From an uncultured Pelagibacteraceae bacterium (lineage in GTDB: Bacteria > Pseudomonadota > Alphaproteobacteria > Pelagibacterales > Pelagibacteraceae): a stretch of DNA of 32,921 nucleotides. Every line of letters starts with the position of its first letter. The stretch's first letter is position 1. Below are positions 14,387 to 29,029 of the stretch, in pieces. The stretch covers positions 1 through 32,921 of the forward strand of contig CACLIZ010000008.1 of assembly GCA_902607115.1 (NCBI GenBank). Reading direction: 5' to 3'. Position numbers and translations under genes: made by a program. The notes under the pieces are model-generated. The model had not been told where the DNA came from, did no database searches, and saw nothing but the letters and a program-made list of their open reading frames with translations.

Positions 14387-15058
14387 TTAATATTTATATC
14401 TCCTTTCAAGAAATTTTATAAAATTATGAACTAAAAATGTCATAAATAAGTAAATACTTCCAGCTACAATAAATACTTCTATCGGTCTAAATGTTGTTGA
14501 TATAATGTATTTAGCAACTCCAGTTAAATCCATTAGTGTAACTGTGCTAGCAAGAGATGTTCCTTTGAGCATTAATATTATTTCGTTACCATAAGCTGGT
14601 AAAGATTGTTTGATAGCTATAGGTATTTGAATTTTGTAAAAAATAATTCTGCTTGATATGCCAAGACTTTTTCCTGCCTCTATAAATCCTGGTTTAATTG
14701 TTTGAAATGCTGACCGTAAAATTTCTGATGTGTAAGCACCTGTGTTTAATGCGAAAGCTATAATTGCGCACCAGTAGGGTTCTTTAAAAATAACCCATAG
14801 CACTGTTGATCTAAAATACTCTATCTGACCTAATCCATAATAAATAATGAATATTTGAACTAAAAGTGGTGTTCCCCTAAATACATAAGAGTAACCATAA
14901 GAAAATTTATTTATTATTGGATTTTTATTCATTCTTAAAACTGCAAATAAAAGTCCAATAAATAAACCAAAAAATAACGATGCTGACAATAATTTTAAAG
15001 TAACCATGGTTGCATTAAGCAACTTAGGAAAACTATTTATCATCAGTTCAAAATCCAT
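14387..15058 (-). CDS. Polar amino acid/opine-type ABC transporter permease (HisM/OccM-like)
   Basis: Inner-membrane subunit (223 aa) with about five helices. It carries the binding-protein-dependent transport signature near residue 135-155 (FIEAGKSLGISSRIIFYKI), which docks the ATPase, and an upstream YVFRGTPLLVQIFIIYYGLG block typical of the HisMQ family. Its start overlaps the stop of the partner permease by one base (TGATG), so they are translationally coupled. It is the last gene of the cassette, and no ATPase gene follows: the next gene is on the opposite strand. Confidence 0.93.
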   Translation of the reverse strand: MDFELMINSFPKLLNATMVTLKLLSASLFFGLFIGLLFAVLRMNKNPIINKFSYGYSYVFRGTPLLVQIFIIYYGLGQIEYFRSTVLWVIFKEPYWCAIIAFALNTGAYTSEILRSAFQTIKPGFIEAGKSLGISSRIIFYKIQIPIAIKQSLPAYGNEIILMLKGTSLASTVTLMDLTGVAKYIISTTFRPIEVFIVAGSIYLFMTFLVHNFIKFLERRYKY

Positions 15059-15750
15059 CAGTGCCCCCTACTGTACTTAACTTCTAATCTGTTTAACAAT
15101 TTCATACTAAAATATGTTAGCAATAAATATAAAACTGCAGCAAATGAATAAAAAAATAGAGGATCTCGAGTTGATCCTGCCGCTATATAAGATTGCCTCA
15201 TTATTTCCACTAATCCAGTAACAGAAATAAGGGATGTATCTTTTAAAGTTATTTGCCAAACATTGCTTAAATTTGGAATTGCCAATCTTAACATTTGTGG
15301 CAAAATAACTTTATAAAATTGAATATGTTTTTTGATTCCTAAAACTCTTGAAGCCTCAAATTGACCTTTGTCTATAGATTGAATTGCTCCTCTAAAAACT
15401 TCTGTGGAATAAGCGCCAGATATAATACCAATTGCAAATGCGCCCGTCATAAAAGCATTTATTTCAATGTAATCATTGTAGCCAAACATAGAGGCAACAA
15501 ACATTATTGCACCACTACCTCCAAAAAAAAATAAGTAGATTACTAAAAGTTCAGGAACACCTCTAATAACTGTCGTGTAAAAATTTCCAATTAAATTTAA
15601 TGATTTATGTTTAGATAATTTTAAAGGTGTAAATATAAGTGCAAATAAAAAACCGATTAACATAGCTGTTATTGAAACAGCCAAGGTCATTAGGGTAGCG
15701 TAAAATAATTCGTCACCCCAACCAGTATCTCCAAATGCTAGAAGTCCCAT
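15058..15750 (-). CDS. Polar amino acid/opine-type ABC transporter permease (HisQ/OccQ-like)
   Basis: Second inner-membrane subunit (230 aa). The block RGVPELLVIYLFFFGGS is close to the OccQ/NocQ (octopine/nopaline) branch of the HisMQ family. The ATPase-docking loop is GQFEASRVLGIKKHIQFYKV. It forms a heterodimer with the 14387-15058 permease. There is no Shine-Dalgarno: the six bases before the ATG (gtctgt on the minus strand) are preceded directly by an 11-bp hairpin, which should limit its translation or transcription relative to the binding protein. Confidence 0.93.
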   Translation of the reverse strand: MGLLAFGDTGWGDELFYATLMTLAVSITAMLIGFLFALIFTPLKLSKHKSLNLIGNFYTTVIRGVPELLVIYLFFFGGSGAIMFVASMFGYNDYIEINAFMTGAFAIGIISGAYSTEVFRGAIQSIDKGQFEASRVLGIKKHIQFYKVILPQMLRLAIPNLSNVWQITLKDTSLISVTGLVEIMRQSYIAAGSTRDPLFFYSFAAVLYLLLTYFSMKLLNRLEVKYSRGH

Positions 15751-15794: not shown

Positions 15795-16622
15795 TTACAT
15801 AGAAGCGTCGAAACCGAACCATTTAGTAGCAATTCTACTAATGTCTCCATTTTTTCTTGCTTTTTCTATAGCTTTGTTAAATGCTTTTAAAAGTTCAGTA
15901 TCATCTTGTCTAATACCAACTCCAACACCGTTACCAAATGCTCCACCTGAAAAAGTTGGTCCAACTAGAACAACTGATTTACCAGACTTCTCAGCATAAT
16001 CTGTAAAGGCAACAGCGGCAGCTAATGCTGCATCACATCTGCCGGAAGCTAAGTCTAAGTTTACTTCATCTTGAGTTTTATAAGTTCTTACATTTACACT
16101 TCCTACATCACCAGAGTCTAAGAAGTTTTGGTGAATAGTTGCTGTTTGTACACAAACAGTTTTACCAGCTAAAGCAGCTGTAAGTGTTTTAAGAGCTTTC
16201 TTAACATCAGAACCACCTAAGGATAAATTTATACCTGAAGGAGTGTCCATTCCTTCTAAACTAGATCCTTTCATTACAGCTAATTGAGCAACTTCGTCTG
16301 CATAACCTTGTGAAAAGCTAATTACTTTTTGTCTTTCAGCTGTAATAGACATTCCTGCCATTATTGCATCGAATTTTCTCATTATAAGCGCTGGAATCAT
16401 TCCATCCCAATCTTGCTCAACAATTTCGCACTGCTTTCCCATGTATCTACATAATGACCAAGCTAACTCAACTTCAAATCCAATTAATTTGCCTGCTTCA
16501 TTTTTTGAATTCCATGGAGGGTAAGCACCTTCAGTTCCAATTCTTATTTTATCAGCATAAACATTAGTGATAATAAATAAAGAAGCTAAAACTGAAATTA
16601 TAGTTTTTTTGAATATATTCAT
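15795..16622 (-). CDS. Periplasmic polar amino acid/opine-type substrate-binding protein
   Basis: A 275-aa extracytoplasmic solute receptor (family 3). A signal peptide ends near VYA (residue 23). The mature start IRIGTEGAYPPWN and the GFEVELAW segment are the classic ligand-cleft landmarks. The ITAERQKVISFS stretch carries the Arg that holds the ligand alpha-carboxylate in this family. The second lobe has YKTQDEVNLDLASGRCDA. Opine or basic amino acids are the likeliest ligands, because the partner permease is OccQ-like; this is inference. A strong Shine-Dalgarno lies at complement 16629-16635. It is 62 nt downstream of speDE on the same strand. Confidence 0.93.
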   Translation of the reverse strand: MNIFKKTIISVLASLFIITNVYADKIRIGTEGAYPPWNSKNEAGKLIGFEVELAWSLCRYMGKQCEIVEQDWDGMIPALIMRKFDAIMAGMSITAERQKVISFSQGYADEVAQLAVMKGSSLEGMDTPSGINLSLGGSDVKKALKTLTAALAGKTVCVQTATIHQNFLDSGDVGSVNVRTYKTQDEVNLDLASGRCDAALAAAVAFTDYAEKSGKSVVLVGPTFSGGAFGNGVGVGIRQDDTELLKAFNKAIEKARKNGDISRIATKWFGFDASM

Positions 16623-16684: not shown

Positions 16685-17725
16685 TTAGTGATTTACAGAG
16701 GAATAAAAATTCCAAGAACTATCAAAACTAGGGATATAAACTCTATCAAGGGTAGCATTTCCAAAATTTTTATTGAAAACATTTAGCCAATTTTCGACCT
16801 GTTTTGGTCTTTTGTCCTGACTGCCAACTTGAGCTGTTATAACGCCATCTGGTTTGAGAATTCTTACAAGAGAATTCATATTTTTTGCAGCAAGGTCTAT
16901 GCAGAATTGATCATCGTTTAAGTCAATAAATATTTTATCATAACTATCATCTTCAACTTTCTTGATACTATCAAAAGCATCTCCCCAAACACATTTAACT
17001 GAATTTTTTTCTGTCGCATTTTTACCAATAGAACCAATATGTTTTTTACAAACCTCAACAACTTCAGGATCTAATTCATACCAGTCAATAAATCCAAATC
17101 CTTTCGCTATACATTCTCTTGTAACTCCTCCATCGCCTCCACCAATAATTGCTGCTCTATCTTTTCTTTTATTTAATTTCATTGCAGAATTCACAAATGT
17201 TCCGCTATATAAATGCTCATCACTCTCGGCGACTTGTAAATCACCATCTATAAATAATGATTTTCCATATTCCACTAATTCTAATATTTCAATGTGCTGA
17301 CCTACTTTTGATTTAAAATCTTCTAGAACATCTTTTACTAGGTAGTTTTTTTTTAATCCTTTTGTGCTCGTGTTGTCATAATAAAAAGAAATTGTATCTC
17401 TATTTAACTCTTTTTTAATTATTCTTTTATGCTCAATCTCTTTTTTTAGAACATCTAAAGCAATTGATGGTGCAACTGTTCCACATGTATAAAAATCAAA
17501 ACTTATTATTCCTTTTTCTGGATATGTGTGAAAGCTAATGTGACTTTCTGCCAACAAAGCTACTAAAGTAAAACCTTGCGGTTCAAATTTATACTTTGCA
17601 ATATTTAAAACTGTTACTTTAGCTTTTTCTGCAATTTTATGAACTAAACCTTCAAAGAAAGATGCCTCATATTCTTTCTTAGTTCCAATTATATCTAAAG
17701 TTATATGCTCCCCTACTTTAATCAT
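16685..17725 (-). CDS. speDE: Fused S-adenosylmethionine decarboxylase-like / spermidine synthase-like protein
   Basis: A 346-aa two-domain protein. Residues 1 to about 115 are a prokaryotic SpeD: self-cleavage between Glu60 and Ser61 (AESHISFHTYPE) would form the pyruvoyl group, with His66 and Cys81 (FDFYTCG) matching Thermotoga SpeD His68 and Cys83. Residues from about 140 are SpeE: GGGDGG (195-200) and ELDPE for the nucleoside, GDAFD, and the DxxD pair Asp268/Asp271. The amine-pocket motif is altered: YHEM in standard SpeE reads YSGT here (173-176). The usual pairing would make spermidine and MTA. The start follows GAGGGAG at complement 17728-17734. It lies 26 nt after ald2 in the MTA-salvage run. 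Decarboxylase substrate is unproven, since SpeD relatives acting on other amino acids are known. Confidence 0.9.
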   Translation of the reverse strand: MIKVGEHITLDIIGTKKEYEASFFEGLVHKIAEKAKVTVLNIAKYKFEPQGFTLVALLAESHISFHTYPEKGIISFDFYTCGTVAPSIALDVLKKEIEHKRIIKKELNRDTISFYYDNTSTKGLKKNYLVKDVLEDFKSKVGQHIEILELVEYGKSLFIDGDLQVAESDEHLYSGTFVNSAMKLNKRKDRAAIIGGGDGGVTRECIAKGFGFIDWYELDPEVVEVCKKHIGSIGKNATEKNSVKCVWGDAFDSIKKVEDDSYDKIFIDLNDDQFCIDLAAKNMNSLVRILKPDGVITAQVGSQDKRPKQVENWLNVFNKNFGNATLDRVYIPSFDSSWNFYSSVNH

Positions 17726-17751: not shown

Positions 17752-18417
17752 TTAACCTTTTTTATAATGAATTATTTTATCTAAGATTTTACTCATCTCT
17801 GTTGATGAAAGAATCTTAGGTTGTCCCAATTTTAATGCAATTATGTATTGATGACAAATATTTTCTATCTCTTGTGCTAATTCAAAAGCTTGTTTTAAAG
17901 TTCCGCCGATTGTTAACTGTCCATGATTTGACATCAGACAACCTTTCCTCTTTTCTAAAGCTTTTATAATATTGATGGATAAATCTGGTGTACCAAAAGT
18001 TGCATATTCGGCACATTTAATGTCGTCTCCACCAGCAAGAGCAACCATATAATGAAAGGCAGGAATTGATTTACCATGAGTTGAAACTGCGGTTGCGTGA
18101 GGAGAATGAGCGTGAACAATTGCTTTTGCTTCTCTTTTTTTTATATAAACATCTTGATGAAAACGCCATTCAGAAGATGGATTTAATCCTGAATTAAACA
18201 TTTTAAGATTGTCATATTTTTCATCTAAGGCGAGAAAAACAATATCCTCTGGTTTAAGAGTTTCATATTTAATCCCTGAAGGTGTAAGAAGAAATCCTTC
18301 AACATCATTTTCAATTACCCTTATAGAAAGATTTCCCGATCTAAGAGGAGATAAATTTGTAGTATTAAGCATAAGCGCAAATTTAATTATATCTTCTCTT
18401 TCTTTTATATTTTTCAT
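17752..18417 (-). CDS. ald2: Class II aldolase, probable methylthioribulose-1-phosphate aldolase
   Basis: Zinc aldolase of the fuculose-phosphate/adducin family (221 aa). Every catalytic residue of E. coli FucA is present with a constant +10 offset: Glu83 (SSEWRFH), His102 and His104 (VHAHSPH), Tyr123 (PAFHYM) and His165 (SNHGQ). The stretch through AGGDDIKCAEYATFGT is also FucA-like rather than MtnB-like. Its ATG overlaps the mtnA stop by 4 nt, so the natural substrate is probably the MtnA product, methylthioribulose-1-phosphate, cleaved to DHAP and 2-methylthioacetaldehyde as in the DHAP shunt. The alternative is an MtnB dehydratase for the universal salvage pathway, but mtnC and mtnD are not here. 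Confidence 0.85.
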   Translation of the reverse strand: MKNIKEREDIIKFALMLNTTNLSPLRSGNLSIRVIENDVEGFLLTPSGIKYETLKPEDIVFLALDEKYDNLKMFNSGLNPSSEWRFHQDVYIKKREAKAIVHAHSPHATAVSTHGKSIPAFHYMVALAGGDDIKCAEYATFGTPDLSINIIKALEKRKGCLMSNHGQLTIGGTLKQAFELAQEIENICHQYIIALKLGQPKILSSTEMSKILDKIIHYKKG

Positions 18418-19484
18418 TTAAATAGATCCTTTAATCCTTTTTCTGATGCTTCACATACGCCTTTTTCAGTAATTAATCCTGTAACATATTTTGCGGGCGT
18501 TACATCAAAAGCTAAGTTCATTGATTTACTTTTTTTTGGATAAATCTGGATTTTTTTTACATTTCCATTTTCGTCTAAGCCCTCTATATGAGATAATTCT
18601 TCTGAATTTCTTTGTTCAATTGGTATATCTTTATAATTTTTTATATCCCAATCGATTGTTGAACTTGGTAGTGCTACATAAAAAGGAACATTATTATCTT
18701 TAGCTGCTAATGCTTTAAGATAAGTTCCGATTTTATTACAAACATCACCGTTAGCTAGCGTTCTATCTGTTCCAACAATACACATATCAACCTCGCCTCT
18801 TTGCATTAAGATTCCACCAGTATTATCTGCTATAATAGTATTAGGTACGCTCTCTTCATTTAGCTCATAAGAAGTTAAATTAGCTCCTTGGTTTCTTGGC
18901 CTTGTTTCATCAGCCCATACATGAACTGGTATTCCTTTTTTGTGTGCATGATAAATTGGAGAAGTTGCAGTTCCCCAATTAATTGTTGCAAGCCATCCAG
19001 CATTACAATGAGTTAAAATATTAACTGTATCTTTTTTTTTATTATATATTTCTTCAATTATTTTAAGACCATTTAATCCAATATTTTCACAAAATTTAAC
19101 ATCTTCCTCGCAAATTTCTTTTGCTTCATTTAATGCTATTTCTAAAATTTTATCGCTATTAACGCCAGACAATTTCTTTATCATTCTATCAACTGCCCAC
19201 TTTAAATTTATAGCAGTTGGTCTCGAATTAATTAAATTTTCTGCTGATTTTTTTAAAAAAGATTGATCGTTGTTTTCAATAATAGACAAAACTAATCCAT
19301 AAGCAGCGGTAGCGCCTATCAAAGGTGCGCCTCTTACTTCCATTACTTTAATTGCATTTATTGCATCTTTGACTGTTTTAAGATCTTTAATAATAAATTG
19401 ATGTGGAAGTTTTGTTTGATCAATAATTTTTACAACATTATTTTCAAACCAAATAGTACTATATTCTTTTCCTTCTATTTTCAT
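18414..19484 (-). CDS. mtnA: Methylthioribose-1-phosphate isomerase
   Basis: A 356-aa eIF2B-like sugar-phosphate isomerase that turns MTR-1-P into methylthioribulose-1-phosphate. Landmarks are RGAPLIGATAAYG at 51-63, catalytic Cys160 (LTHCNAGWLAT), the ETRPRNQGA loop at 193-201, and catalytic Asp240 (VGTDRTLANGDVCNKIGT). Cys160 and Asp240 have the same numbers as in the Bacillus subtilis enzyme. Standard VGADRI reads VGTDRT here, a conservative change. It overlaps both neighbours by 4 nt (mtnP stop and aldolase start), so the three are one translation unit. Confidence 0.95.
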   Translation of the reverse strand: MKIEGKEYSTIWFENNVVKIIDQTKLPHQFIIKDLKTVKDAINAIKVMEVRGAPLIGATAAYGLVLSIIENNDQSFLKKSAENLINSRPTAINLKWAVDRMIKKLSGVNSDKILEIALNEAKEICEEDVKFCENIGLNGLKIIEEIYNKKKDTVNILTHCNAGWLATINWGTATSPIYHAHKKGIPVHVWADETRPRNQGANLTSYELNEESVPNTIIADNTGGILMQRGEVDMCIVGTDRTLANGDVCNKIGTYLKALAAKDNNVPFYVALPSSTIDWDIKNYKDIPIEQRNSEELSHIEGLDENGNVKKIQIYPKKSKSMNLAFDVTPAKYVTGLITEKGVCEASEKGLKDLFK

Positions 19485-20353
19485 TTATTTAAAACTCTAC
19501 CAGCCACTGTATTAAGTTTATCTTTAGTTTTTTGTGTTCTTTTTTCTGGAGCAGTAATTATAGCAACATCTAAACAATTATTTGTAGGATCTTTTGGATC
19601 GATATGCTTTTCAAAATTTTCTATTAAATTTTTAATCATGTTTTTAGCTTTAGCTGCATTTCCTAAAAGAACTTTGATAACTTGTTGAACATCAACATTT
19701 TCATGATCTGGATGCCAACAATCATAATCTGTCACCATTGAAACTGACGCATATCTAATTTCAGCTTCTCTTGCTAATTTAGCTTCAGGCATATTTGTCA
19801 TTCCGATTACATCTGCTTTCCAAGATCTATATAAAATCGACTCTGCTAATGTTGAAAACTGAGGACCTTCCATAACAATATAAGTTCCACCTCTTTGATA
19901 TTCTATTTTTTCTTTTTTAATAGCTTCTTCACATGCATTCATTAATCCATTGGCTGTTGGATGAGCCATAGAAACGTGAGCTACTATTTCATCATCAAAA
20001 AATGTTTTATTTCTTGCAAAAGTTCTATCTATAAATTGATCAACTATTACAAATTTTCCCGGTGGCAAATCTTCTTTTAAAGAACCAACCGCTGAAACTG
20101 ACACAATATCTGTTACACTAAGTTGTTTTAGCGCATCTATATTAGCTCTAAAGTTTATATTTGAAGGATTAATAAAATGACCTCTTCCGTGTCTTGGTAA
20201 AAAATAGATTTCTTTATTTTTATATATAGTTTTTAGTATTTGATCTGAAGGCTTTCCCCAAGGCGTGTTTAGGTCTAATAATTCTCTTTCTTTGAATTCT
20301 TCAACGTCATATAAACCACTGCCACCAATTATAGCCAATTTATTGTTTGCCAT
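19481..20353 (-). CDS. mtnP: 5'-methylthioadenosine phosphorylase
   Basis: A 290-aa PNP/MTAP-family phosphorylase that splits MTA with phosphate into adenine and methylthioribose-1-phosphate. It starts IIGGSGLYD, has the phosphate-site PRHGRGH and NINFRANI, the ribose/base region VMEGPQFST and MTNMPEAKLAREAEI, and VTDYDCWH, where the Asp pair favours 6-aminopurines (adenine) over guanine and hypoxanthine. Length is usual. It is the first gene of the minus-strand salvage run and is divergent from apt across 41 bp, so the two enzymes that make and rescue adenine share a control region. Confidence 0.95.
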   Translation of the reverse strand: MANNKLAIIGGSGLYDVEEFKERELLDLNTPWGKPSDQILKTIYKNKEIYFLPRHGRGHFINPSNINFRANIDALKQLSVTDIVSVSAVGSLKEDLPPGKFVIVDQFIDRTFARNKTFFDDEIVAHVSMAHPTANGLMNACEEAIKKEKIEYQRGGTYIVMEGPQFSTLAESILYRSWKADVIGMTNMPEAKLAREAEIRYASVSMVTDYDCWHPDHENVDVQQVIKVLLGNAAKAKNMIKNLIENFEKHIDPKDPTNNCLDVAIITAPEKRTQKTKDKLNTVAGRVLNK

Positions 20354-20394: not shown

Positions 20395-20922
20395 ATGGAT
20401 TTAAAAGATTATATTAGATCAATTCAAGATTATCCTAAGAAAGGGATTCTTTTCAGAGACATAACAACGTTAATAAAAAATGAAAAAGCTTTTACTTATT
20501 GCATTGATCAAATAGTCGAAAAATCTAAACAATTTGATTTTAACAAATTAGCAGCGGTTGAATCTAGAGGTTTTGTTTTTGCATCTGCGGTTTCATATAT
20601 TCTCAAAAAACCTTTTATTTTACTTAGAAAAAAAAATAAGTTGCCGGCAGAAACTTATTCGGTCGATTTTGAATTGGAGTATGGAACAGCAACTATTGAA
20701 ATGCACAAAGATTCAGTAGATAAAAATGATTCAGTTCTAATAATAGATGACCTTATAGCAACAGGAGGAACTGCCGAAGGTGCTGCAAAACTAATTAAAA
20801 TATCAGAAGGAAAAGTAGCTGGATTTATATTTGTAATAAATCTCTTTGATCTAGGTGGTTGTGATTTGCTTCTGAAACAGAACTACAGAGTGGAAAATCT
20901 AATTGATTTTCCTGGTCACTGA
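20395..20922 (+). CDS. apt: Adenine phosphoribosyltransferase
   Basis: A 175-aa purine salvage enzyme converting adenine plus PRPP to AMP. It opens YIRSIQDYPKKGILFRDIT, the Apt signature, then AVESRGFVFA, LRKKNKLPAET (flexible loop) and the PRPP-binding VLIIDDLIATGGTA near 118-131. Divergence from mtnP makes sense, since MtnP releases adenine. Its stop overlaps the end of the convergent GT2 gene by 7 nt, marking the edge of the sugar island. Confidence 0.95.
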   Translation: MDLKDYIRSIQDYPKKGILFRDITTLIKNEKAFTYCIDQIVEKSKQFDFNKLAAVESRGFVFASAVSYILKKPFILLRKKNKLPAETYSVDFELEYGTATIEMHKDSVDKNDSVLIIDDLIATGGTAEGAAKLIKISEGKVAGFIFVINLFDLGGCDLLLKQNYRVENLIDFPGH

Positions 20923-21867: not shown

Positions 21868-22887
21868 ATGAACAAAATAGTGGTTACTGGTGGTCTGGGT
21901 TTTATTGGAAGTAATTTAGTTGAATTATTAATTAATAAAGGTTTTACAGTCATAAATATAGATAAAGTAAGTTATGCATCCAATTTCTATAACGTTTCAA
22001 GCATTAAAAAAAATAAAAAATACAAATTTTTTAAAATTGATATAAATAATAAAAAAAAAATATTAAATATTTTCACAAAATTTAAACCAATTTGCATTTT
22101 CAACTTGGCCGCTGAAACTCACGTCGATCGTTCAATAGATTCCCCAAAAGAATTTATTAATAGTAATATTTTAGGAACTTTCAATATTCTTGAAGCTTAT
22201 AGAAATTACTCAAAAAATAATAATAAATCTAAATTTATCCATATATCAACTGATGAAGTCTATGGTGATATAATAAAAGGTAGAACAAATGAAAATTATC
22301 CTTACAATCCTAGTTCTCCTTATGCAGCAAGCAAAGCTTCATCTGATCACTTGGTTATTTCTTATATAAAAACTTTTGGAGTCAGGGCGATTATAACAAA
22401 TTGCTCTAACAATTATGGGCCAAGACAACATCCTGAAAAATTAATACCTAAAATGATTTATAATATTTTAAATAATAAAAATTTACCAATTTATGGTGAT
22501 GGAAAAAATTCTAGAGAATGGATTTATGTTAAGGATCATTGTGAGGCATTGTATAAAGTTTTTAAGTCTGGAAAAATTGGCGAAAATTACAACATCGGTT
22601 CAAACAAAAATTATAATAATTTAGAAATATGTAAAACTTTAATAAAAGTTGCCAAAAAAAATATTATTATAGGTAAAAATGTAAGGGTAAAATTTGTCAA
22701 AGATAGACCTGGTCACGATAAAAGGTATGCCTTAAATAGCTCTAAAATAATTAATCAACTAAAATGGAAACCAAAAACTAGTTTTATTAATGGAATTAAC
22801 AAAACATTTAAATGGTATCTTAATAATAAAAAATATTATAAGTCGATTAATAAAAAAGATATTATCAAAAGATTAGGAAAAAATTAA
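21868..22887 (+). CDS. rfbB: dTDP-glucose 4,6-dehydratase
   Basis: A 339-aa extended SDR that makes dTDP-4-keto-6-deoxyglucose, second step of dTDP-rhamnose-type sugar synthesis. The NAD site GGLGFIGS is at 8-15, AAETHVDRSID at 81-91, the catalytic ThrAspGlu at 128-130 (STDEVYGD), and YAASK with Tyr152/Lys156. RPGHDKRYA near the end is the dTDP-glucose dehydratase hallmark. It overlaps rfbA by one base (TAATG). Lysine and AAA content is very high, as across this island. Confidence 0.96.
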   Translation: MNKIVVTGGLGFIGSNLVELLINKGFTVINIDKVSYASNFYNVSSIKKNKKYKFFKIDINNKKKILNIFTKFKPICIFNLAAETHVDRSIDSPKEFINSNILGTFNILEAYRNYSKNNNKSKFIHISTDEVYGDIIKGRTNENYPYNPSSPYAASKASSDHLVISYIKTFGVRAIITNCSNNYGPRQHPEKLIPKMIYNILNNKNLPIYGDGKNSREWIYVKDHCEALYKVFKSGKIGENYNIGSNKNYNNLEICKTLIKVAKKNIIIGKNVRVKFVKDRPGHDKRYALNSSKIINQLKWKPKTSFINGINKTFKWYLNNKKYYKSINKKDIIKRLGKN

Positions 22888-23759
22888 TGATAAAAAAAGG
22901 AATTATTTTAGCCGGAGGCAAAGGCACAAGAATGAGTCCATTAACTAAGGCTGTAAATAAACAATTACTTCCTATATATGACAAACCTTTAATATTTTAT
23001 CCTTTGTCTATTCTAATGTTAGCAAATATCAGAGATATTTTAATAGTTGTTAATAAGGGTCAACTAGATCAGTATAAAAAAATACTTCCAGATGGTAAAA
23101 GACTAGGTATTAAAATTTCTTATATTGAACAAGATAAACCAAGAGGGTTGCCTGATGCTTTTATTTTAGGTGAAAAATTTATTGGAAAAAATAATGTTTC
23201 TTTAATTTTGGGTGATAATTTCTTTTATGGACAATATTTATCGGAAAGATTGAAAGATTCAGTTAAACTTAGCAAAGGAGCAAAAGTTTTTTTACATAGA
23301 GTTTCACATCCAGAGAGATACGGTGTTGCGAAGGTAAAAAATAATAAAATTACAATCATAAAAGAAAAACCAAAAAAATATATTTCAGATCTTGCGATAA
23401 CTGGTCTATATTTTTTTGATAATAGAGTAGTGAAACTTGCAAAAAAACTTAAACCTTCAAAAAGAGGAGAGCTTGAAATAGTTGATCTTCTGAATAAGTA
23501 TAAAAGAGTAAATAAACTTTCTGCTGATTATATAGGTAGAGGTGGGTCATGGCTTGATACAGGTTCAATAAGCGATTTTTATAAAACAAGTGATTTTGTT
23601 TCTGTTATAGAAAATAGACAAGGTTTTAAAATTGCATGTATTGAAGAAATTGCTCTTAATAATAAATGGATAAAAAGAAAAGATATAATTAAGTCGATTA
23701 AATTCTATGGAAAATGTGAGTATTCTAATTATCTTAAAAAATTAATCAAACATAGATGA
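22887..23759 (+). CDS. rfbA: Glucose-1-phosphate thymidylyltransferase
   Basis: A 290-aa nucleotidyltransferase that makes dTDP-glucose from dTTP and glucose-1-phosphate. The signature LAGGKGTRMSPLTKAVNKQLLP is at the N-terminus (GGKGTR 10-15, Lys25). Later blocks are LILGDNFFYG, GVAKV, ITGLYFFDN and the RfbA-type SWLDTGS. It overlaps rfbB by 1 nt and rfbC by 4 nt, forming a tight operon. Glucose-1-phosphate could come from the phosphohexomutase at 2468. Confidence 0.96.
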   Translation: MIKKGIILAGGKGTRMSPLTKAVNKQLLPIYDKPLIFYPLSILMLANIRDILIVVNKGQLDQYKKILPDGKRLGIKISYIEQDKPRGLPDAFILGEKFIGKNNVSLILGDNFFYGQYLSERLKDSVKLSKGAKVFLHRVSHPERYGVAKVKNNKITIIKEKPKKYISDLAITGLYFFDNRVVKLAKKLKPSKRGELEIVDLLNKYKRVNKLSADYIGRGGSWLDTGSISDFYKTSDFVSVIENRQGFKIACIEEIALNNKWIKRKDIIKSIKFYGKCEYSNYLKKLIKHR

Positions 23760-24281
23760 AAAAAATAAAAACAAAAATTAAAGGCTTATATATTTATGAA
23801 AGTAAAATATTTCATGACAATCGTGGCAATGTAAGGGAGGCCTTCAAAAAAAATTCTATAAAAAAAAATTTATTTTTTTCAGTAGTTTCAAAATCTAAAA
23901 AAAATGTGATAAGAGGCCTACATTTACAAATAAAAAAAACCTCAAGATAAATTCATTGGAGTCTTAAAAGGTAAAATTTTAGACGTAGTTGTTGATTTGA
24001 GAAAAAATTCAAAAACTTTTGGTCATCATTTTAAAATTATTTTGAGTGAAAAAAAAGCAAGATACCTGTTTGTACCGAAAGGCTTTGCTCATGGATTTTT
24101 AGGTTTAGAAAAAGAAAATATAGTTTTATACAGCTGCTCGAACTATCGATATAGTAATTACGAAAGATCCATAAGGTGGAACGACAAAGATTTAGATATA
24201 AATTGGGGAATAAAAAAACCTATAATATCTAAAAGAGACTCTAAGGCATCTACGTTAAAAGAATATATTAAAAATAAATAA
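23756..24281 (+). pseudogene. rfbC: dTDP-4-dehydrorhamnose 3,5-epimerase, frameshifted at a poly(A) tract
   Basis: The first 61 codons encode the RmlC N-terminus with catalytic His56 (VIRGLHLQ). At a run of eight A (23932-23939) the frame slips and a stop follows. Removing one A gives KKPQDKFIGVLKGKILDVVVDLR and joins to LRKNSKTFG and FVPKGFAHGFLGLE, restoring a 174-aa protein of usual length ending at 24281. Both halves are well conserved, so the damage is recent, a sequencing or assembly error, or is bypassed by slippage on A8. If truly dead, the dTDP-sugar made here would stop at the 4-keto stage or be the glucose-configured form. Confidence 0.85.
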
Positions 24282-24286
24282 TTAAT

Positions 24287-25459
24287 ATGATTTTTTTGGA
24301 TCTAGGATATCAACCTTTTGCAAATGAATACTTAAAAAAAAAGAAAAAAAAAGAAAAAAAATATAGGCTTCTTATTGACTTTAATAAAAAAAATAAAATT
24401 GTATCAATTAAAAAAAAATTTTTAAGCGAAGAAATATTTAAAAATAATTATCCCTACAGATCTTCTATCTCAAAAACAATGAAGAAAAGTTTTAAAGATT
24501 TATCAAAAATAATTAAAAAAAAATTTAAAAGTGAAAAAATTTTAGAAATTGGTTGTAATGATGGTGTTTTTTTAGAAAATTTTGATAAAAAAAAAACAGT
24601 TGGCATTGAACCTTGTAAAAACATTGCAAGATTATCAAAAAAGAAAAATTTAAATGTATTATCTGAATATTGGACAAAAAAACTTTCAAATAAGATAAAA
24701 AAAAAATACGGAAAATTTGATATAATTTTTTCAGCTAACACAATTACTCATATAAAAAATTATGATGAAGTGTTTAATTCAGTTAATAATGTTTTAAGTG
24801 ATAATGGAGTTTTTATAATTCAAGATCCATCATTACTAAAATTAATTAAAAAAAATGCATATGATCAATTTTATAATGAACATATTTATGTATTTTCATA
24901 CTTATCTCTTGCGAGAATAATAAAAAAACATAATTTAGAAATTTTTAATTTAGAAAATATAAAGGATCATGGAGGATCAATAAGATACTATATTAAAAAA
25001 AAACAAGCTAACTATAAAATAAATAAATCCATAAGAATCCAGAATAAAATCGAAATTAAAAATGGTCTTCACAAATTCTCTACTTATAAAAAATTTAGAA
25101 ATAGAGTAATATTATCAAGAAAAAAATTAATAGGCTTATTTAATAAAATTAATAAAAAGAACAAAAGAATCATTGGTTACGGAGCAACGGCCAAAGCAGT
25201 AACAGTCTTGAATTATTGTCAAATTAACCACAAAAATATTAAATATTTTGTTGATACAACTCCTGAAAAACAAGGAAAGTTTATGCCCGGTGTCAAAATT
25301 CCAGTTAAAAAATATTCTAAATTATTAAAGAAGAAAGTTGACTATGTATTTCTTGGTGCGTGGAATTTTAAGAATGAAATATTTAAAAAAGAAAAAAAAT
25401 TTCTTTTAAATAATGGTAAATTTATAACTCATGTTCCATTTCCAAAAATTATCTCATAA
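24287..25459 (+). CDS. SAM-dependent sugar C-methyltransferase-like protein lacking the zinc cysteines
   Basis: A 390-aa protein resembling NDP-sugar C-methyltransferases: an N-terminal LDLGYQPFANEYL block, the SAM motif LEIGCNDGVFLE (86-97), DPSLL, and a C-terminal domain with GYGATAKAV (297-305) and FLGAWNF. In relatives the N-terminus starts with CxxC and has a second Cys pair binding zinc. Here the protein begins just after where the first pair should be, and the second region reads DFNKKNKIVSI with no Cys. An in-frame stop just upstream excludes a longer start. It may methylate the dTDP-keto sugar made by RfbAB; the target is inferred. Confidence 0.82.
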   Translation: MIFLDLGYQPFANEYLKKKKKKEKKYRLLIDFNKKNKIVSIKKKFLSEEIFKNNYPYRSSISKTMKKSFKDLSKIIKKKFKSEKILEIGCNDGVFLENFDKKKTVGIEPCKNIARLSKKKNLNVLSEYWTKKLSNKIKKKYGKFDIIFSANTITHIKNYDEVFNSVNNVLSDNGVFIIQDPSLLKLIKKNAYDQFYNEHIYVFSYLSLARIIKKHNLEIFNLENIKDHGGSIRYYIKKKQANYKINKSIRIQNKIEIKNGLHKFSTYKKFRNRVILSRKKLIGLFNKINKKNKRIIGYGATAKAVTVLNYCQINHKNIKYFVDTTPEKQGKFMPGVKIPVKKYSKLLKKKVDYVFLGAWNFKNEIFKKEKKFLLNNGKFITHVPFPKIIS

Positions 25460-25463
25460 ATAA

Positions 25464-27578
25464 ATGAATATTAATTTTTTATTAAAAAAGAAAACATCAA
25501 TAATAATTATTTTACTGTGGCCATATATTTTTTTATTTCCTATTACATTTGGTTTTATATCAATTGGAAATGATTTTGATTTAATTTACTTCTCTTATAA
25601 AAGATATATTGCAGAAATGTTAGTTGAGGGAATTGTTCCTCTTTGGTCCCCAGCTGAAGGTACTGGTTTTTCTTTAATCTTTAATCCTTTTGCTCAATAT
25701 TTTTATATTCCTGGATGGATTAATTACATAATTCATTTTTTTAGTAAAAATCTAACCCTGCACAATTACGTATTATATACAATCTCTGCTATTTCAATTT
25801 TTTCTCTAGGAACTTTTTATTGGTTGAGAACTTTAAAAATAGATCACTTTGTAGCTTTATTATCTGCTTTACTTGTAGCTTGTAGCTTGAAAGTTACAGA
25901 ACTTATGCGATTTCCAAACGCTGCTCATGCAGCTGCTTGGATGCCGTGGATATTATATGGAATTAATTTAATGATTTTATATAATAAAAAATTATCTATT
26001 TTAATTATATTTTTATCAAATTTATTTATTTTAACTGCTGGATATCCTTATTTTATAGTTTATTCATTATTTCTTTTTGTTCCGTATATTATTTTTATTC
26101 CATTGATTCTTAATGAAAGTAGAAAAAATAATTTAAAAAATAATTTATTTTTTTATTTTTATATTTCCATACCTTTTGCTTTATCATATTTGGTTGCATT
26201 ACCTTGGTTATTGAGAGTTAAAGAATTTTTGAACAGTTTAGTCGATAGAACTGAAAATAATTGGGAATTTTCCACTGAACATATTTTTTATTGGAAAGAT
26301 ACTATTGGATCTTGGATTTTTCCGCCTGCTTCTAGCACTGAAGGCTGGTATTACTCCGGAATTTTGGTCTCAATATTAATTTTTTTTGTTTTAATTATTT
26401 TGTTACTTAATACTAAAAAGTTAAATCATTCTGATAGAAAATTAATTATATATTCAACTATATTTTTATTATTTATTACTTATTTTAGTTGGGGAAAGTA
26501 TTCTATTTTATTTGAATGGTCATGGAATAATATACCACTTATAGGTTCTTTAAGAACATGGCCTAGAATTAATATTGTTTTAGTGCCATTTATAATATTA
26601 TTATCTGCAATCAGCTTTAAATATCTATTATCTTTTATTGATGAAAATAATCAAAAATTTTTAAATAAATTAATAATAATATTTATAGGAATATTTACAT
26701 TTTTATTTTGTTTACAATTAATTTTTTATATTTTTGGTTTTCAAAATGAAGAATATTGGAATTTTTGGCAAAAAAAAAGATTTGATGCAGCTATAACTGC
26801 GCTTCCAACTTTTTTTGGAAATATATTAAAGTTATTTAATGGTGAGATATATTTATTTTTTAATTTATTATGTTTAATATTTTTCATAACAATAATTAAT
26901 ATTAGATTAAAAAAACAATTTATTTTCATAATAGTAACATTGATCGTTTCTTCGGAATTATTCATTCTGTCAAATTTGCAATGGGGTTTGGATAAATGGA
27001 AGACAAATTTAACTAAAACTGAAAATTCACTAGAGCTATTAAAAGAAGGATTTTTATCACCTAGAATAATTGATACCGTAAAAGGAAATGAATATTTTAG
27101 AGATAATAGAACTTTTAATGTCAATTATCCCGACAATTATGGATATGATTCTCATGCAAAAAATTTCACTAAGTATTTTCAAAGGTACGGTGGTAAAAGT
27201 AAAAAAAATATCTTAAATAAAAACTTGGATGATATAAAGTTATTTTATGGAGCGTCAGAAGAAGGGAAAAGAATTTTTTTTTCTCAAAGTATAAAACATG
27301 AAAATATCTCTTCTTTTATTTTTGATAGTAATAATTTTGAGTTTGTGAGTGATTTTCAAACTGAAATTTTAATGGATAAATTTGATGGTAATAAACTTGA
27401 ATTAAATGTTACTTCAAATCAAGAAGGTTGGTTGAGCTATATTGATAATTGGGATAAAGGATGGATCGTTTTTATAAATGGTGAAAAAAGTGAGATATAT
27501 AAATTATTTAACTCTTATAAATCTATAAATATTAAAAAAGGATTTTCAAAAGTAAAATTTGAGTATAAACCTTGGTAA
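25464..27578 (+). CDS. YfhO-like multi-spanning membrane protein
   Basis: A 704-aa integral membrane protein with roughly a dozen hydrophobic helices over the first 500 residues and a C-terminal extracytoplasmic beta-rich domain containing GWLSYIDNWDKGWIVFINGE, the hallmark of YfhO-family proteins. These belong to the GT-C-like group, and relatives help glycosylate lipid-linked or surface polymers from polyprenyl-phosphate sugars. An early loop has LWSPAEGTGFSL. A flippase/GT2 partner would be expected, and the GT2 gene 9 nt downstream fits that. The substrate is not known. Confidence 0.8.
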   Translation: MNINFLLKKKTSIIIILLWPYIFLFPITFGFISIGNDFDLIYFSYKRYIAEMLVEGIVPLWSPAEGTGFSLIFNPFAQYFYIPGWINYIIHFFSKNLTLHNYVLYTISAISIFSLGTFYWLRTLKIDHFVALLSALLVACSLKVTELMRFPNAAHAAAWMPWILYGINLMILYNKKLSILIIFLSNLFILTAGYPYFIVYSLFLFVPYIIFIPLILNESRKNNLKNNLFFYFYISIPFALSYLVALPWLLRVKEFLNSLVDRTENNWEFSTEHIFYWKDTIGSWIFPPASSTEGWYYSGILVSILIFFVLIILLLNTKKLNHSDRKLIIYSTIFLLFITYFSWGKYSILFEWSWNNIPLIGSLRTWPRINIVLVPFIILLSAISFKYLLSFIDENNQKFLNKLIIIFIGIFTFLFCLQLIFYIFGFQNEEYWNFWQKKRFDAAITALPTFFGNILKLFNGEIYLFFNLLCLIFFITIINIRLKKQFIFIIVTLIVSSELFILSNLQWGLDKWKTNLTKTENSLELLKEGFLSPRIIDTVKGNEYFRDNRTFNVNYPDNYGYDSHAKNFTKYFQRYGGKSKKNILNKNLDDIKLFYGASEEGKRIFFSQSIKHENISSFIFDSNNFEFVSDFQTEILMDKFDGNKLELNVTSNQEGWLSYIDNWDKGWIVFINGEKSEIYKLFNSYKSINIKKGFSKVKFEYKPW

Positions 27579-27587
27579 ATTTCAAAA

Positions 27588-28337
27588 ATGAGTAAAAATA
27601 TTCCAGACAAAAAAATTTATGCAATGGTCATTTCTTATAATAGTTCTCCTGTACTGCAGGAGTTGTATCAAAGAATAGACAAGGAAAATTTTGATAAAGT
27701 TTATTTTTTTGATGATAACTCGCCTGATGATTCTGCTGAAAAAGCAAAAAAGTTTGATTGGATTGTAATAAAAAATGAAAAAAATTTAGGTCACGGTGGT
27801 AATCTAAAGAAAGCTTTAAAAACTGTATTTGAAGATGGCGCAGACTATGGTGTAGAAATACATGCTGACAATCAATACTCGCCCAATGAAGTAATTAAAG
27901 CCAAAGATATGATTGATGATAATTTTGATTTAATTATTGGTTCAAGATTTAAAAATAAAAATCCCCACAAGCAAGATGGTATGCCATTTATGAGATATTT
28001 TACAAATAAAACAATGAGTTTAATTACAAGTGGTTTGTTTGGTATTAATTTGACTGAATTTCACACTGGGTGCAAAATATTTAGTAAAGACTTTTTTTAC
28101 TCAATACCAATAAAAAATACATCAGATAATTATCTATTTTCATTTGAAATAATTTTGCAAGCTGCATATTTTAAAAAAAAATATGGAGAAATAAGCATAT
28201 CATCAAGTTACGAGGGCTATCATACATCGTGTAATTATCTAAATGGTTTTATTTACCTATTAGGAAATATTAAATTAATGTTTCTTTATTTTTTTTCTAA
28301 AATAAAAATATTTAAATCAAAAACTTTTAATCGATGA
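27588..28337 (+). CDS. Glycosyltransferase family 2 (polyprenyl-phosphate sugar transferase-like)
   Basis: A 249-aa GT-A enzyme with MVISYNSS, FDDNSPDDS (Asp42/43), NLGHGGNLKKAL and the metal site EIHADNQYSP (Asp94), then IIGSRF, which together resemble dolichyl/undecaprenyl-phosphate mannosyl- or glucosyltransferases. Only one weak hydrophobic stretch is at the C-terminus. It probably loads a sugar on undecaprenyl phosphate for the adjacent YfhO-like protein. It overlaps the next SDR gene by 4 nt (ATGA). Confidence 0.85.
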   Translation: MSKNIPDKKIYAMVISYNSSPVLQELYQRIDKENFDKVYFFDDNSPDDSAEKAKKFDWIVIKNEKNLGHGGNLKKALKTVFEDGADYGVEIHADNQYSPNEVIKAKDMIDDNFDLIIGSRFKNKNPHKQDGMPFMRYFTNKTMSLITSGLFGINLTEFHTGCKIFSKDFFYSIPIKNTSDNYLFSFEIILQAAYFKKKYGEISISSSYEGYHTSCNYLNGFIYLLGNIKLMFLYFFSKIKIFKSKTFNR

Positions 28338-29029
28338 AAAAAATAATTGTTACGGGTGGATCAGGTAGATTTGGTAAAATATTAAAAAAATATAAATCTA
28401 AATATAACGTATTTTTTCCAACAAAATCTAAATTGAATATAAAAAAATATAAATCAATTGATAAATATATCAAAAAAATTAAACCAGATTATTTTATCCA
28501 TTGTGCTGCAATTTCAAGACCAATGAAAATTCATGAGAAAAATATAATCCAAAGCATAAGCACAAATATAATTGGAACATCTAATGTTGTTATGGCGTGC
28601 AAAAGATATAATACAAAATTAGTATATTTTTCAACAAATTATGTTTATCCCAAACTTAAAGGAGCATACCGTGAAACTGATCCTGTTTTTCCTTTTAACA
28701 ATTATGGTTGGTCAAAGTTGGGGGGTGAGGCTGCAGTTCAAATGTATAATAACTCTTTAATTTTAAGAATTTGTATGACTGAAAAACCCTTTGTTCATAA
28801 CAAGGCATTCTACAATGTAAAATCAAATTTTATGTTTCATGAAGATGTGGTCAAAATCTTGTTCAAGGTTTTAAATTTGAAAGGCATTTTAAATGTTGGT
28901 GGCCCTTCACGAAGTGTATTTGATTTTGCAAAAAAGTTTAACCCTAAAGTTAAAAAAATTAAATGTAATTTTAAACATATTCCCTTAAGTTCAGTAATGA
29001 ACATTTCAAAATTAAAAAAAAAAGTATAG
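28334..29029 (+). CDS. RmlD-like short NAD(P)-dependent sugar-nucleotide reductase/epimerase
   Basis: A 231-aa extended SDR. The cofactor loop GGSGRFG is at 8-14, HCAAISRP near 56-63, STNYVYP near 100-106, and Tyr124/Lys128 form YGWSK. The opening, CAA and STNYVYP motifs are those of dTDP-4-dehydrorhamnose reductase (RfbD), but it is about 60 residues shorter than typical RfbD, missing much of the C-terminal substrate lobe. As no other rfbD is present beside rfbABC, it may do that 4-keto reduction. It is the last island gene, just before the tRNA fragment. Confidence 0.75.
   Translation: MKKIIVTGGSGRFGKILKKYKSKYNVFFPTKSKLNIKKYKSIDKYIKKIKPDYFIHCAAISRPMKIHEKNIIQSISTNIIGTSNVVMACKRYNTKLVYFSTNYVYPKLKGAYRETDPVFPFNNYGWSKLGGEAAVQMYNNSLILRICMTEKPFVHNKAFYNVKSNFMFHEDVVKILFKVLNLKGILNVGGPSRSVFDFAKKFNPKVKKIKCNFKHIPLSSVMNISKLKKKV

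Follow-up and report, generated by a model that had tools for sequence, protein, structure and literature searches.

A SpeD-SpeE fusion of SAR11 bacteria with an altered aminopropyltransferase motif

The locus and its distribution in SAR11

The window, that is, the whole stretch of 32,921 nucleotides that was analysed, comes from an assembly of 892,538 bases that is 68.7% complete. One of its genes joins an AdoMet decarboxylase (SpeD) to an aminopropyltransferase (SpeE) in a single reading frame, and is flanked on one side by genes of methylthioadenosine (MTA) metabolism and on the other by a transporter (Table 1). Its relatives show that this frame is no chance ORF. Named genomes yielded 540 of them, and the best 80, titled Pelagibacteraceae, Pelagibacterales or Ca. 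Pelagibacter (SAR11), are 74-97% identical to the window protein. Within the order, 86 of 147 genomes hold a match, counting that of the window; in two of these genomes the match is weak and confined to the SpeD part, and a few others are incomplete. No match to the fusion was found in 61 of the 147 genomes, at least eight of which belong to the window's own genus. In trees the window protein is placed inside the SAR11 clade.

Table 1. Features of the speD-speE locus. Scores are in bits with model cut-offs in brackets where given; neighbour counts are from 92 loci examined, of which 81 have 3 kb of upstream and 88 have 4.2 kb of downstream sequence.
Feature	Position	Strand	Evidence or remark
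Two permeases, same ABC transporter	14387..15750	-	Pfam BPD_transp_1 in both; downstream in 83/88 loci
ABC transporter solute-binding protein, basic-amino-acid type	15795..16622	-	Pfam SBP_bac_3; downstream in 83/88 loci
speD-speE fusion gene, 346 aa	16685..17725	-	ATG start; AdoMet decarboxylase and spermidine/spermine/thermospermine-type aminopropyltransferase
Spermine_synth catalytic domain, residues 170-343	16697..17218	-	Pfam PF01564, 81.6 (22.9)
GGGDGG (195-200), Glu217, Asp268, Asp271	within 16697..17218	-	residues of the Spermine_synth domain
YSGT motif replacing YHEM, residues 173-176	17198..17209	-	
Spermine_synt_N (tetramerisation) domain, residues 117-167	17225..17377	-	Pfam PF17284, 27.8 (22.1)
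AdoMet_dc domain, residues 7-109	17399..17707	-	Pfam PF02675, 91.3 (25)
Ser61 (pyruvoyl precursor), His66, Cys81	within 17399..17707	-	residues of the AdoMet_dc domain
Class II aldolase adjoining mtnA	17752..18417	-	Pfam PF00596, 162.7; upstream in 64/81 loci
mtnA, methylthioribose-1-phosphate isomerase	18414..19484	-	TIGR00512, 422.6 (279); upstream in 67/81 loci
mtnP, methylthioadenosine phosphorylase	19481..20353	-	TIGR01694, 302.3 (274.85); upstream in 60/81 loci
apt, adenine phosphoribosyltransferase, divergent	20395..20922	+	TIGR01090, 193.4 (185.85); upstream in 63/81 loci

Neighbouring genes and the polyamine pathway

MTA is the by-product of aminopropyl transfer, and the set of genes adjoining the fusion fits a role in its salvage by a route of the DHAP-shunt type. 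The class II aldolase, for which no NCBIfam model scored over its cut-off among 25 of 28 rows, is probably the aldolase of this salvage and would be of the DHAP-shunt type. The route is not obligatory for the fusion enzyme, since no mtnP match was found in two of the 10 genomes searched, G011 and G026, both of which are near-complete and carry the fusion. In G011, apt adjoins the fusion. The ABC transporter downstream resembles lysine/arginine/ornithine systems, the solute-binding protein scoring 234.2 bits against TIGR01096, just under the cut-off of 256.35. Farther along the window, positions 21868-29029 hold nucleotide-sugar and glycosyltransferase-like genes (dTDP-sugar type, by eye), likely a surface-sugar region.

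An earlier reading of this DNA from its sequence only had found no ornithine or arginine decarboxylase gene near the fusion, and none is evident among the window ORFs (translations by eye; Pfam on 10 proteins). It had pointed to the rest of the genome as the place to look, and there, with PF02784 as the only model, a homologue was indeed found outside the window; the absence from the window therefore says nothing about the genome. The PF02784 search of the source genome returned two proteins. One is the diaminopimelate decarboxylase lysA (416.3 bits vs 297.9), and the other is a 224-residue piece at a contig end that is over no NCBIfam cut-off. Full-length relatives of the piece occur in all nine other SAR11 genomes that were searched; their open frames span 392-485 aa, that of L197 being 397 aa long. 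A Pelagibacter 'ODC' has been described that acts on arginine, not on ornithine or lysine (PMC9992855), and orthology together with an adjoining deoxyhypusine-synthase-like gene suggests that the 224-residue piece is the same gene. The deoxyhypusine-synthase-like ORF of the source genome (L118:523-1101, contig C13) is 192 aa long vs 347 aa in L197, and is either a truncated gene or an assembly error.

Domains and catalytic residues

That the gene encodes a SpeD-SpeE fusion with both catalytic sites kept, as proposed from the sequence, is borne out by all of the residues named and by Pfam domains scoring over their cut-offs. The SpeD part is also over the NCBIfam equivalog TIGR03330 (95.1 bits vs a cut-off of 75.65). 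In contrast, the SpeE part falls far under both speE equivalogs, TIGR00417 (96.1 bits vs 249.55) and PRK00811 (120.5 bits vs 260), so the family models do not name it a spermidine synthase. Autocatalysis in class 1b SpeD proteins uses a Ser, a His and a Cys, which are S63, H68 and C83 in T. maritima (PMC10407285); in the larger alignment described below, the corresponding Ser61, His66 and Cys81 do not vary in any of the 117 distinct SAR11 fusions, and neither do Tyr173, Asp198, Glu217, Asp268 and Asp271. The fusion thus has the aminopropyltransferase hallmarks of a GGG(D/E)G dcAdoMet motif, an Asp pair and an acceptor Tyr. A pattern described for spermine synthases has an Asp in motif 2, a Gly two residues beyond that motif and a Glu in motif 3, although its motifs do not separate out spermidine synthases (PMC11107197). 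Asp198, Glu217 and Gly200 of the SAR11 fusion match this pattern, the assignment of Glu217 depending on an alignment with a one-residue gap.

The altered YHEM motif

The replacement of YHEM by YSGT is present as the sequence-only reading had it, with His and Glu both lost. Among 110 aligned SAR11 fusions (the window and 109 loci), residues 173-176 read YSST in 74 and YSGT in 33, with YSGA, YSSV and YSYT found once each. After addition of 12 loci and removal of identical rows, which left 117 distinct SAR11 sequences out of 122, the counts are YSST 80, YSGT 31 and six others once each; His at 174 and an acidic residue at 175 are absent from all 117. These rows are not independent: some named and unnamed loci share a genome, and even non-identical rows are closely related. 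The survey was BLAST-based, a stricter pattern scan having missed 58 of 81 loci. Other aminopropyltransferase ORFs carry His or Gln at 174 in 47 of 48 cases (Ser in one) and Glu or Asp at 175 in all 48, these comparison ORFs being best hits that are neither random nor free of near-copies. On these alignments the change from YHEM is a SAR11-wide trait, fixed across the group.

Fusion itself does not bring the motif change, since YHE is kept in all seven non-SAR11 SpeD-SpeE fusions (L135, L136, L138, L139, L159, L160, L161). These proteobacterial proteins have the same domain order but are 22-29% identical to the window protein, and the tree separates them from the SAR11 clade (100/100). Further divergent stretches in the SAR11 and phage copies are the gatekeeper loop, DLND (DLNDDQF), which is mostly of the DPxG type in other aminopropyltransferases, and a C-terminal PS[FY]DxxW (PSFDxSWNF in SAR11). 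Gly301 was considered as a lost acceptor Glu (AQCE in Plasmodium vs AQVG here) and was rejected, since 44 of 48 other bacterial aminopropyltransferase ORFs also have Gly.

In the Plasmodium spermidine synthase, putrescine is held by Tyr102, Asp196, Ser197 (backbone) and Asp199, while His103 lies close enough to the aminopropyl nitrogen of dcAdoMet to bond with it (PMC4356361). By alignment His103, Tyr102, Asp196 and Asp199 correspond to S174, Y173, D268 and D271 of the SAR11 fusion, and the spacing of 24 is common to Plasmodium His103-Asp127 and S174-D198. His85 of thermospermine synthase takes part in dcAdoMet binding, and its position is uninformative about specificity (PMC11107197); we take it to be the equivalent of S174 on the same 24-residue spacing (His85 to Glu109). 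From the match to Plasmodium His103 at dcAdoMet, the lost His would be a donor and not an acceptor contact, with the main acceptor contacts (Tyr and both Asp) kept. The claim that a conserved His and Glu next to the amine site were lost therefore holds for the loss but not for the His as an acceptor contact. For the Glu of the motif (Glu104 in Plasmodium), the passages of PMC4356361 consulted give no role and do not mention the residue.

Structural relatives

An AlphaFold2 model built with 29 sequences, including five phage copies, reached pLDDT 87.5 and pTM 0.70 and was used here; a first model (pLDDT 66.5, residues 165-172 under 50) was discarded. The model matches aminopropyltransferases over about residues 110-346, with Z up to 27.7 by VIA-align. 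The top row, for the SpeE part only, is Pyrobaculum calidifontis SpeE (7xif; Z 27.7, rmsd 2.4, 233 aligned), and Medicago thermospermine synthase (6bq2/6bq6) is close to it, again for the SpeE part only (Z 27.4, rmsd 2.2, 230 aligned). Spermidine synthases come within 1 Z of these top rows, so the Z-scores were rejected as an indicator of which acceptor the enzyme uses. The best whole-chain match by Foldseek is human spermine synthase (PDB 3c6k; E 4.6e-24), which covers both domains. The N-terminal domain of the human enzyme is AdoMet-decarboxylase-like and inactive, whereas the decarboxylase residues of the SAR11 fusion are intact; the domains are also placed differently in the two proteins (rmsd 12.0 over 319 residues).

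Activity and acceptor range

SpeD-SpeE fusions of Ca. P. ubique HTCC1062 and Ca. Pelagibacter sp. HTCC7211 were expressed in 2024 by Li and others (PMC11107197). Both restored spermidine in E. coli BL21speD, a speD deletion, gave spermine/thermospermine in BL21speE and BL21speG, and made norspermidine from 1,3-diaminopropane; per the authors, they could be considered bifunctional spermine/thermospermine synthases (PMC11107197). SAR11 SpeE is also described as the product of a gene fusion with a broad substrate range in PMC8437039, on the strength of its reference 69. In our set, the orthologues from genomes G011 and G013 (fusions L121 and L120, respectively) are 75% identical to the window protein over residues 1-346 and have the motif YSST. 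We take these genomes to be HTCC1062 and HTCC7211, and their fusions to be the assayed enzymes. The two presumed copies have the same two-domain architecture, DLNDDQF loop and PSFDxSWNF segment as the window protein and are likewise without the His and Glu; at residue 175 the window protein has Gly whereas the presumed HTCC1062 (WP_011282223) and HTCC7211 (WP_008544956) copies have Ser. The SAR11 SpeE fusion and its broad substrate range are said to have been studied earlier by Green and others in 2011, presumably the reference 69 just mentioned.

The reading preferred here, with a probability of about 0.9, is that the gene encodes a bifunctional SAR11 enzyme for AdoMet decarboxylation followed by synthesis of spermidine, spermine and thermospermine, with MTA salvaged by the neighbours. 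Its domains, catalytic residues, orthology and conserved neighbours are observed, and the activities are published for two orthologues; by analogy the window protein would share them. The class 1b SpeD domain would self-cleave at Ser61 to form its pyruvoyl group and would decarboxylate AdoMet. The C-terminal domain would then transfer the aminopropyl group to putrescine, giving spermidine, and by further transfer to spermidine would give spermine and thermospermine; 1,3-diaminopropane could also be used. Methylthioadenosine released in these steps would pass for salvage to the enzymes encoded next door by mtnP, mtnA, the aldolase gene and apt.

Several other readings bear on this. The altered motif might have switched the acceptor, such that the protein aminopropylates only another amine (agmatine, cadaverine or other) and makes no spermidine. 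The loss of the YHEM His and Glu and the different DLNDDQF loop and C-terminal segment throughout the 117 distinct SAR11 fusions would fit such a switch, as would the use of more than putrescine by the assayed relatives (PMC11107197). However, the Tyr and the two Asp that correspond to putrescine contacts are present, and the assayed orthologues make spermidine while their presumed copies L120 and L121 share the lost His and Glu, the loop and the segment, which makes a complete switch very improbable. The sequence-only reading had raised a different amine acceptor, and this stands as a broader range (spermine, thermospermine, norspermidine) but not as a switch; a standard putrescine-to-spermidine activity, which it had itself named beforehand as counting against its proposal, is what the assayed SAR11 orthologues show (PMC11107197). 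Given those orthologues and their presumed YSST copies, the altered motif is compatible with a normal formation of spermidine and a wide choice of acceptors, and we infer that it goes with a tolerant rather than a switched acceptor site.

A change at the other end of the protein, turning the SpeD domain into a decarboxylase of ornithine or arginine, has precedents in some phage and bacterial SpeD homologues, including that of a pelagiphage (PMC9992855; PMC10407285). It is a most remote prospect here, since the domain is over the AdoMet decarboxylase equivalog TIGR03330 and the orthologous SAR11 fusions restore spermidine in the E. coli speD deletion (PMC11107197), and the earlier suggestion of a SpeD acting on another amino acid is not supported. 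One proline is shared by all true AdoMet decarboxylases but is not conserved in those of the arginine type (PMC10407285); every one of the 117 distinct SAR11 fusions carries Pro69, which lies near the catalytic His and may be that residue. Finally, metabolite measurements in HTCC7211 led to the proposal that the enzyme also runs backwards in the cell and breaks down imported spermidine and norspermidine, in a catabolic role (PMC8437039). Results for HTCC1062 were less clear, and bidirectionality of SpeE is not known elsewhere (PMC8437039), so that a reverse reaction seems unlikely; it would in any case be compatible with the bifunctional enzyme and no alternative to it.

With the bifunctional enzyme as the preferred reading, the gene is largely explained as a known and already assayed enzyme type, and the fusion illustrates that YHEM can be lost with no switch of acceptor. 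Since SAR11 ranks with the most abundant bacterial groups of the ocean, naming the gene correctly, as AdoMet decarboxylase plus spermidine/spermine/thermospermine synthase, keeps marine annotation accurate.

Phage copies of the fusion

The SAR11-type fusion is also found on eight phage contigs of a viral collection (L186-L192 and L200). It is whole on six of them, e.g. at L187:4758-5801 and L200:6773-7816, and is cut by the contig end on L191 and L192; L186 and L187 encode the same protein. At residues 173-176 the eight copies, which are not all distinct, read YSTT (3), YSGT (3), YSST (1) and YSNT (1), and all eight are without the His and the acidic residue. A gene for the ribonucleotide reductase small subunit follows the fusion in seven (L186-L191 and L200), and one for the large subunit precedes it in L186, L187, L189, L190 and L200. 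On L191 the contig starts within the fusion, and on L188 the gene before the fusion is a different one, GMP reductase-like by eye. Model scans identified a primase, both reductase subunits and a RuvC-like resolvase on L187, both reductase subunits on L200 and the small subunit on L188, the other phage-contig genes being read from translations. The copy at L192:1-915 (same contig as L202) has its start cut off, and baseplate wedge proteins were found by model scan. By gene order, the fusion-carrying phages are presumably T4-like.

Two separate phage lineages carry the fusion, and in trees their copies fall among those of the SAR11 family. L192 groups with SAR11 genera g2 and g4 (100/100), and the reductase-type copies form a separate clade whose placement is less firm (94/98 in one tree, 73/51 in another); a single common phage clade is rejected (AU p 1.45e-05, 5 phage vs 20 host rows). 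These trees are unrooted, which makes any direction of transfer an interpretation and not a result; for L192, the 100/100 clade with SAR11 genera makes transfer from host to phage likely. Somewhat favoured on present evidence is that the SAR11-type fusion is a self-contained unit of broad polyamine synthesis captured by phages from SAR11-family hosts at least twice, once beside reductase genes, and making spermidine-type polyamines during infection. If true, a single gene would take phages of SAR11-type hosts all the way from AdoMet to spermidine, a point of more weight than the SAR11 gene itself; the altered pocket is kept in all eight copies.

These phage copies may be new. A limited literature search (titles and abstract starts) found no report of a phage SpeD-SpeE fusion, and PMC9992855 describes one phage with a separate pair of SpeD and SpeE genes, the words 'fusion' and 'fused' being absent from its main text. 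Among 50,697 phage records none covers 80% of the query; 135 match, and the 40 matches listed lie in the SpeD part. A SpeD homologue, 41% identical over residues 5-109, was also observed at L193:5001-5324, on a viral contig of 82.6 kb.
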